Positions 11,515-14,500 of a stretch of 64,000 nucleotides of DNA are shown in pieces (the stretch's first letter is position 1; every line of letters begins with the position of its first letter). Both the position numbers and the translations under genes were made by a program. The DNA comes from Tubulanus polymorphus (taxonomy: Eukaryota > Nemertea > Palaeonemertea > Tubulaniformes > Tubulanidae). The DNA lies in NCBI RefSeq assembly GCF_964204645.1, contig NW_027437457.1, positions 34,127 through 98,126 of the forward strand. The letters are read 5' to 3'. The notes beneath the pieces were generated by a model. The model made no database searches. It was given only the letters and a program-made list of their open reading frames with translations, and was not told the DNA's origin.

Positions 11515-14500
11515 ATGGATGGATTTGATAATAATGAAGGTTAGTAAATGGTTCCCTCTGCCACCATTTGGTGGCTAAATCCTGATTACTAATTATTTGA
11601 TTAATTTAATCTTGACAAATGTTAAATTTCTTAATAATAAGGTGTTAATTCGGGTGCAACAACAATGATGCATCACCAACGGCAACTGGGTACAGCTTCG
11701 GATGACGGCAATAATGAGGAAAATAAACTGAATTTATCGGAAGGTTTAAAACAGAATGTCACATCATTTGTAAGTTTTCTTCTGGATGAGGGCCTCCGAA
11801 TGAGATCCTCCTAATGAGGGCCTCCAGATGAGGGCCTCCGAATGAGGGCCTCCGGATGAGGGCCTCCTAATGAGGGCCTCCTAATGAGGGCCTCCAGATG
11901 AGGGCCTCCGAATGAGGGCCTCCGGATGAGGGCCACGGAGCTCGTGAGGTTTTACTAGTTTCACAAATAGACCGTCCGATGTGGAGGTCTAATGAATGAT
12001 GCATATTGGTTGTTTGTAGATGTGGCAGGCAGGAAAAGCTCAAGCTCAACAACTCACGTCCTACGCTAAAATCGATATTCTACGACCTTATTTCAACGTT
12101 GAACCGCATCAAGTTGGACAAAGACTGTTGTATTCTTTGGTGCCAAAGTTTCCTGGCACAGCTCCACAGGTAGGAATCAGAAAGAGGGAGAGAGAGGAGG
12201 ATGAGAGAAAGGATGAGTGAAATGATGAGTGAGAGGGTTGTATTTAATGCTCTTACTGTATTTCAGAAATTACCCAGTGAATTATATGGTCCAACGATGT
12301 TAGTTTTTACACTGGTGGCGCTACTGTTGTTTCAAATGAAAATGTCCGGTCATCATGTTGTAAGTAAAACGGCCATTTTGGATTGATGTTTTACTATCTT
12401 GCAAAAAGGGTTTAGATATAGGGTTATGTCAAAAATTGGTTATGTTGATATTTTGCGGGGTGAAGGCGCTCTAATGGGTTCAGCTATAGGATTATGTTGA
12501 TATTTTGCAGGGTGAAGGCGCTCTAATGGGTTCAGCTATAGGATTATGTTGATATTTTGCAGGGTGAAGGCACTCTAATGGGTTCAGCTATAGGATTATG
12601 TTGATATTTTGCAGGGTGAAGGCACTCTAATGTGTTCAGCTATAGGATTATGTTGATATTTTGCAGGGTGAAGGCACTCTAATGGGTTCAGCTATAGGAT
12701 TATGTTGATATTTTGCAGGGTGAAGGCGCTCTAATGTGTTCAGCTATAGGATTATGTTGATATTTTGCAGGGTGAAGGCACTCTAATGGGTTCAGCTATA
12801 GGATTATGTTGATATTTTGCAGGGTGAAGGCACTCTAATGGGTTCAGCTATAGGATTATGTTGATATTTTGCAGGGTGAAGGCGCTCTAATGGGTTCAGC
12901 TATAGGATTATGTTGATATTTTGCAGGGTGAAGGCGCTCTAATGTGTTCAGCTATAGGATTATGTTGATATTTTGCAGGGTGAAGGCGCTCTAATGGGTT
13001 CAGCTATAGGATTATGTTGATATTTTGCAGGGTGAAGGCGCTCTAATGGGTTCAGCTATAGGATTATGTTGATATTTTGCAGGGTGAAGGCGCTCTAATG
13101 TGTTCAGCTATAGGATTATGTTGATATTTGGCAGGGTGAAGGCGCTCTAATGTGTTCAGCTATAGGATTATGTTGATATTTTGCAGGGTGAAGGCGCTCT
13201 AATGTGTTCAGCTATAGGATTATGTTGATATTTTGCAGGGTGAAGGCGCTCTAATGGGTTCAGCTATAGGATTATGTTGATATTTTGTAGGGTGAAGGCA
13301 CTCGAATGTGTTCAGCTATAGGATTATGTTGATATTTTGCAGGGTGAAGGCACTCTGATGGGTTCAGCTATAGGATTATGTTGATATTTTGCAGGGTGAA
13401 GGCGCTCTAATGGGTTCAGCTATAGGATTATGTTGATATTTTGCAGGGTGAAGGCGCTCTAATGGGTTCAGCTATAGGATTATGTTGATATTTTGCAGGG
13501 TGAAGGCGCTCTAATGGGTTCAGCTATAGGATTATGTTGATATTTTGCAGGGTGAAGGCACTCTAATGGGTTCAGCTATAGGATTATGTTGATATTTTGC
13601 AGGGTGAAGGCGCTCTAATGGGTTCAGCTATAGGATTATGTTGATATTTTGCAGGGTGAAGGCGCTCTAATGGGTTCAGCTATAGGATTATGTTGATATT
13701 TTGCAGGGTGAAGGCGCTCTAATGGGTTCAGCTATAGGATTATGTTGATATTTTGCAGGGTGAAGGCACTCTAATGGGTTCAGCTATAGGATTATGTTTC
13801 GCGTATTGGATCGGAGGTTCTGCCCTTATTTGGAGTGTGGCTTACGTATCAAACTCACACATCAGAGGAATGCAAGTTGCGTCATTACTGGTACGTTTAT
13901 AACGGGCTTCCGTATTACTCTTTACGAGCTACCGTACTCACGTTGAGGGTATGCACTAATGAGCTGCTGTAATATTTGTTTTTGTAGGGGTATGCACTAA
14001 CAGGCCACTGTATTGTATTGTTTCTCGGGACAGTAATTCACACCTCTCACACTCACATGCTGTTCTATTTATTATGGGCGATATTTGGAGGTCTATGCAC
14101 GCTGAAAATGGTTCGTATTTATAACTGATCTCGTCTCCGATCAATTCTATCTCATTGTTGATTCGTCTAATTAATCAATATTATTGATTATTTTCAGGTG
14201 ACCGTTTTATTAGAACGAATATCCGGTAAAACTCAGCGTATCGTCATGGCAGCGATTGTTGTATCTCTTCATCTGCTGTTTTTACTTTATTTACATTTCG
14301 CTTATCATCGAGTTGTCGAAGGTCAGTTGTTATCTTATCTCTGATTGGTTTTATCTGTTAGTTGTTATCTTAACTCTGATTGGTTCATTCTGTAAGTTGT
14401 TATCTAAACTCTGATTGGTTCATTCTGTTAGTTGTTATCTAAACTCTGATTGGTTCATTCTGTTAGTTGTTATCTAAACTCTGATTGGTTCATTCTGTTT

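Follow-up and report, generated by a model that had tools for sequence, protein, structure and literature searches.

Tandem duplications across an intron-exon boundary have been described in lancelets as "mirages", in the genes of Adh3, the globins BflGb6 and BflGb9, troponin C, and PGBD5. In these reports (PMC3087553, PMC3902484), the AG/GT signals are kept in many of the units and the splicing is reported as regular and undisturbed. The BflGb6 mirage (PMC3087553, PMC3902484) resembles the YIPF3 array described here, since in both the 3' end of an intron is duplicated together with the start of the next exon. In the potato RdRp gene a duplication over an intron-exon boundary led to a new intron (PMC4974935).

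The window (the whole stretch of 64 kb analyzed here, bases 34127-98126 of contig 40) belongs to a 267.8 Mb assembly, in 77 contigs, of the palaeonemertean Tubulanus polymorphus. It contains arrays in the YIPF3, RPS11, CWF19L1, and a nuclear-receptor gene, each covering a 3' splice site. An array over a splice site is of a kind already known from the lancelet mirages. In contrast to these cephalochordate cases, the Tubulanus arrays are found in a nemertean, each of them lies on a 3' splice site, several occur in this single 64 kb window, and their scaffold is rich in minisatellites. The copy numbers differ as well, with 26, 17, 12, and 5 exon starts in Tubulanus and 6 and 3 units in the two BflGb6 haplotypes. 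Repeats over splice sites, discussed as possibly general in cephalochordates, occur in a spiralian too. Among open-licence full texts we met no report of multi-copy arrays over splice sites outside lancelets and, as far as that literature goes, what is new is the phylum, the copy number, the clustering of four arrays within a single window, the occurrence in a ribosomal-protein gene, and a CWF19L1 unit that takes in a whole intron.

Structure of the YIPF3 array

Read in register in one assembly, the array (12440..13791, forward strand) consists of 26 head-to-tail copies of a 52 bp unit that spans the 3' splice site of YIPF3 coding exon 6 and 33 nt of the exon beyond it. The call of Tandem Repeats Finder extends over 12440-13798, with a period of 52, 26.1 copies, 97% matches, and 0 indels. 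Each unit joins the 19 nt end of the intron (TTATGTTGATATTTTGCAG, exact in 23 of the 26 units and closing with TTTTGCAG) to the 33 nt start of the following exon, which opens with GGTGAAGG. This confirms what the earlier note on this DNA had read from the letters, namely 26 tandem copies of an acceptor plus exon start in YIPF3 and a 52 bp unit connecting intron end and exon start, although the exon is not the fifth, as stated there, but coding exon 6 in the NCBI-compatible model. The arrays of the three other genes, and the existence of a named kind, went unnoticed in that note. In the YIPF3 array, positions 52 apart match at 97.8%, whereas 200 mononucleotide shuffles average 28% and reach at most 31%. 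The 26 full units show 97.6% mean pairwise identity and comprise 8 distinct sequences; the departures from the consensus (n=21) are located mostly in the exon part (18), with 3 in the intron part.

Some 25 competing AG acceptors had also been proposed upstream of the real one. The number of upstream copies is indeed 25, but AG is kept in 24 of them (units 2 to 25), while the first unit (12440..12491, forward strand) has a dead acceptor, with TTTTGCGG in place of TTTTGCAG (GCGG). This is the only lost AG of the array. At the other end, units 19-22 and 23-26 (13376..13791, forward strand) show the variant order GG GG GG AG twice, the functional last copy included, which is likely the trace of a four-unit block duplication. 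Unit 26 continues into the unique sequence of the intact exon 13759-13890. The array thus agrees with the mirages in having a unit across the intron-exon boundary (19 nt of intron and 33 nt of exon), and similar units with turnover and a less homogenised edge (97.6% identity, the four-unit block, and the AG loss in unit 1). The mirages also combine kept splice signals with a regular mRNA; the YIPF3 array keeps AG in 24 of the 25 upstream copies and has an NCBI protein built on the last copy, and may resemble them in this respect.

The edges of the duplication carry the direct repeats GGTTATGTT and GGATTATGTT, the motif TTATGTT occurring on both the intron and the exon side. We consider it probable that the YIPF3 array is a slippage-born minisatellite over a 3' splice site, i.e. 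a mirage, tolerated since the copy joined to the complete exon is the one used. A slip or an unequal exchange between the two TTATGTT motifs would have duplicated the 52 bp between them, and further exchange would have brought the units to 26 and homogenised them; both this birth and the later block turnover are inferred from the sequence. The array would persist without an adaptive function, since the upstream exon would be spliced to the last copy, which alone runs on into a complete exon.

An assembly artefact, with a single copy misassembled into 26, might be suspected, as the contig is a 98 kb scaffold with an end that lies inside an array. Units 1, 14, 17, and 18, however, have private substitutions, which make a naive assembly duplication unlikely, and the presence of 8 unit types, of several independent arrays of like kind, and of a similar array density at the starts of chromosome contigs argue in the same direction, so that this explanation is very improbable. 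The exact 27-base pattern of the unit has 23 matches in the genome, all on the contig of the window.

Gene model of YIPF3

The YIPF3 gene was modeled with nine exons with GT-AG ends and an open frame through to the stop codon. The joined protein matches the NCBI YIPF3-like isoform X2 of Tubulanus polymorphus (P0001) at 100% identity. The NCBI protein has 11 further N-terminal residues (MELDTNDWYSK), encoded by coding exon 1, which we located in the window at 11268..11300 (11268-11300, forward strand); from residue 12 onward the model equals P0001, bar one residue at a NAGNAG acceptor. This acceptor (TTTAGTAGTAG, 15107-15121) is found in the last intron, before the last exon, and the NCBI isoform X2 contains one valine fewer there than the model of the window. 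The exon upstream of the array (12267..12359, forward strand) ends in phase 0 and has the donor GTAAGT. Coding exon 6 of the NCBI protein (13759..13890, forward strand) uses the acceptor of the last unit.

Two further repeats are present in the gene. The start of the following exon (exon from 13988) recurs once, in degenerate form, at 13947..13975 (forward strand), which gives a two-copy duplication on the acceptor side, with a self-copy score of 14.0 against a maximum of 9.0 in 50 shuffles. A 35 bp x 5 array (14325..14499, forward strand) begins at intron position 4 after the exon 14198-14321 and holds no exon sequence.

Competing acceptors and the probable choice of the last copy

The last copy of the array is the one joined in the NCBI YIPF3 protein; therefore, either the decoys are passed over or their products are lost. 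NCBI gene models may, however, follow protein homology. The accurate use of the last copy in RNA is expected from two NCBI proteins together with the regular splicing reported for lancelets (PMC3087553 and PMC3902484). Such a choice is a real puzzle: in an alternative splice site survey (PMC9225289) the upstream 3' site is favoured where introns are short, a preference that weakens under exon definition, and since many introns of the genes in the window are short, decoy wins might be expected.

Models of 3' splice-site choice weigh the strength of the site, its distance to the branch point, and the distances across the intron and across the exon. The repeat keeps strength and local context the same throughout the YIPF3 array, and mainly the position and the exon body vary, which makes the array a clean natural test. 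According to a position-weight model built on 43 acceptors of the window, the real YIPF3 site scores 10.4, a value shared by 22 of the 24 AG decoys. In decoy 22 the sequence does not differ from that of the real site from 193 nt upstream to 40 nt downstream; in the other decoys the identity extends less far. A usable branch point in the last unit alone, proposed in the earlier note, or a folding of the array RNA that brings the last acceptor to the donor, would explain the choice of the last copy. The identity of decoy 22 contradicts the first proposal, as it excludes a branch point or any other local signal private to the last unit within the 193 + 40 nt, and this candidate was rejected. RNA structure as the selector was likewise rejected: the fold of the last four units with the exon is not more stable than those of dinucleotide shuffles (z = +0.99, with 86 of 100 shuffles equally or more stable). 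Either mechanism can hardly be the case. The signal should thus lie in the exon body beyond +40, in downstream processing signals (the 5' splice site or the poly(A) site), or in the position at the edge of the array, and one of these would guide the choice under the mirage reading that we prefer.

In poison exons, unproductive splicing is coupled to decay, and the use of a YIPF3 decoy would similarly give an early stop. As the array follows an exon ending in phase 0, a TGA is reached after 13 codons from each upstream copy; all 25 were checked, in accordance with what had been claimed for any decoy. Along the lines of the earlier note, which suggested abundant nonsense-mediated decay as a means of setting expression, it may be proposed that decoys are often used, that the TGA products are destroyed by nonsense-mediated decay, and that the number of units in this way sets the output of YIPF3. 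The stops are located at least 142 nt ahead of the next junction, and the abundance of the decoys (AG in 24 upstream copies, 22 of them scoring as the real site) would also suit such a regulation. A stop more than ~50 nt before a later junction, the position that decay calls for, is found for the YIPF3 decoys but not in RPS11, whose array lies ahead of the last coding exon; in this respect the RPS11 decoys differ from poison exons and hardly fit the proposal, the more so as 2 of the 16 are open to the native end. Moreover, an early stop on reading into an intron is expected by chance, and AG is lost in 3 of the 4 upstream copies of the nuclear-receptor array. Unproductive splicing that depends on copy number is thus considered unlikely, in comparison with a tolerated mirage.

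The RPS11 array

The second array (17084..17985, forward strand) holds 17 copies of the start of the RPS11 last coding exon with its acceptor; the copies are spaced by 54 bp, except one spacing of 55, and the exon in use starts at 17955. In the NCBI protein, uS17-like isoform X2 (P0122), the last copy is the one joined. The name 'X2' implies that an isoform X1 exists, which did not turn up; this counts against the mirage reading. Since the array precedes the last coding exon and AATAAA is found 21 nt past the stop codon, a downstream 5' splice site is probably absent. Exon definition, which the earlier note proposed as the way to the last copy, may plausibly operate in YIPF3; in RPS11, however, it could hardly draw on a downstream 5' splice site.

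Seven of the 16 RPS11 decoys score above the real site, five of them at 8.2 compared with 6.2, which tells against the mirage reading. Two are in frame to the native end, and for the remaining ones the stops lie within the last coding exon. Exon-junction-dependent decay would not act on stops in a last exon, and therefore it could hardly clean up these products. A search of the 267.8 Mb assembly at E <= 0.001 found RPS11 nowhere else, with all 3 matches on contig 40; frequent use of the decoys would hardly be affordable for a worm that has a single RPS11 gene. No Tubulanus RPS11 decoy isoform was found among the 5 matches at E <= 1e-80 in a search for proteins of ~172-546 aa that scored 7988 candidates, and another search gave none in its best 120 of 807 matches. 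Taken from the sequence, these features argue for an accurate choice, at least in RPS11, that would be made via the exon body or poly(A)-side signals. A ribosomal-protein gene without a second match in the genome thus also carries a repeat over a splice site, and the natural test of 3' site choice exists in one worm for internal exons and for a last exon.

Within the RPS11 array, the unit types at 17198-17630 form a higher-order repeat (aagga, agggc, aagga, aggga), which suggests a 216 bp block duplication.

The CWF19L1 and nuclear-receptor arrays

On the reverse strand, CWF19L1 contains a 104 bp x 12 array (21383..22630; the first donor starts at 22629 and the true exon at 21414). Its unit comprises a donor GTGAGT and a 71 or 76 nt intron, followed by an acceptor with the first 28 nt of the exon, so that 11 extra donors and 11 extra acceptors delimit 11 potential mini-exons. 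The edges of the duplication are AGGTGAG and TGGTGAT, with GGTGA common to the donor and the next exon; because the edge falls on this motif, each unit has the whole set of donor, intron, acceptor, and exon start. A segment that supplies both sites of a potential new intron is thus present in CWF19L1 and absent in YIPF3.

The units may accordingly be regarded as introns or exons at birth, serving as real ones in some transcripts, and the 28 nt mini-exons of CWF19L1 would be the foremost candidates. The length of 71 or 76 nt is near the 77-85 nt of 6 of the 10 other modelled introns of the gene, and the potato RdRp gene offers a precedent of a new intron from a boundary duplication (PMC4974935). 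The likeness to the latter consists in the boundary-crossing duplication, the CWF19L1 junction supplying a donor beside the inherited acceptor; the potato gene has two copies (PMC4974935), whereas CWF19L1 has many, and its new introns are potential only. Against such a birth, inclusion of all 11 mini-exons would add 308 nt and shift the frame. In YIPF3, the exon-unit junction has no GT, and the exact re-splicing of decoy products was rejected on this sequence. We regard ongoing intron or exon birth as quite unlikely.

The fourth array, 49 bp x 3.9 (27819..28007, forward strand), covers the acceptor of the nuclear-receptor exon that starts at 28009. Five exon starts are observed, the true one being the last; of the 4 upstream copies, 3 lack AG where the acceptor should be, and the first is cut short and follows a weak TAG.

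The distribution of exon copies was compared in 44 introns of six modelled genes, chosen because they could be modelled (the nuclear-receptor model is without first exons, lamin without ends, and PURA without start; YIPF3 exon 1 is off by one base at both ends in the model). For each intron, copies of the opening 24 nt of the next exon and of the closing 24 nt of the previous exon were scored against 50 dinucleotide shuffles. A copy of the next-exon start beyond all 50 shuffles was found in 5 of the 44 introns, one of them being the small YIPF3 case, and a copy of the previous-exon end in 1 of 44 (CWF19L1 intron 4, 10.0 compared with a maximum of 9.0), with ~0.9 of 44 expected by chance on each side. 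The acceptor-side bias (5/44 vs 1/44) is suggestive, not proven. Direct repeats at the duplication edges are shown in 2 of the 4 larger cases (YIPF3 and CWF19L1).

Chromosomal setting and other repeats of the contig

In contig 40, 27.7% of the sequence consists of tandem arrays with a period of at least 10; in an interior stretch of 160 kb of contig 1, the share is 2.0%. Counted for any period, tandem arrays take up 36%, 17%, and 34% of the first 10 kb of contigs 1, 2, and 3, compared with 0%, 3%, and 4% of three interior 10 kb pieces; in total, seven samples besides contig 40 entered this comparison. Contig 40, the 98 kb scaffold that ends inside an array, would thus be a piece of a chromosome end, while the telomere hexamer was not seen in its outer 500 bp. 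The YIPF3 array lies in a scaffold that is rich in minisatellites, as are the starts of chromosome contigs. Subtelomeric minisatellites occur in humans (on such repeats, cf. PMC3486850). The dense arrays near the starts of Tubulanus chromosome contigs are alike, with the difference that the subtelomeric place of contig 40 is one that we infer.

A wider generalization is tentative and, in our view, somewhat doubtful: among identical acceptors in a block, the copy fused to unique exon sequence alone would be used with near-complete fidelity, in internal exons (YIPF3, CWF19L1) and in the last exon of RPS11, an essential gene present once in the genome, independently of the neighbourhood of the site and of a downstream 5' splice site, and repeats over splice sites would arise routinely, and almost neutrally, from minisatellites of chromosome ends well beyond the lancelets.

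Other repeats were observed along the contig. At 10211-11245, unit copies contain TTAGGG-like runs (CTAGGGTTAGGGTTACGAACCGGACTGG), which would fit an origin from a chromosome end. In the left 34 kb of the contig, many frames cross an array edge; among these, three places with a conserved-looking exon were read by eye, and the arrays there are wholly intronic; two of the three places we take to be VPS18-like. On the reverse strand, a probable intron at 48937-52549 consists nearly entirely of one array (67 x 54 bp), which begins 8 nt past the GT of the GTAAGTAT donor and stops 12 nt before the exon at a TTTTCAG acceptor. In a lamin-type gene, a 32 bp x 22 array (32836-33538) starts from intron position 4 and presents many TTTACAG/TTTATAG decoys ahead of the real exon at 33557; the same gene has in-frame coding minisatellites at 34125-34395, with units of 27 and 36 bp that encode the repeats SSAGQLGLT and GGQSAQLGLGLT.

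Tandem units of ~76 bp with a tRNA-like GGGTTCGAACCC box are found at 18828-20856 and 60474-60796. ARAGORN found no tRNA, these units included, and they are possibly tandem SINE-derived units. On the reverse strand, a reading frame at 61140-62114 has a GIY-YIG domain and, with the adjoining frames, resembles a Penelope-like element.
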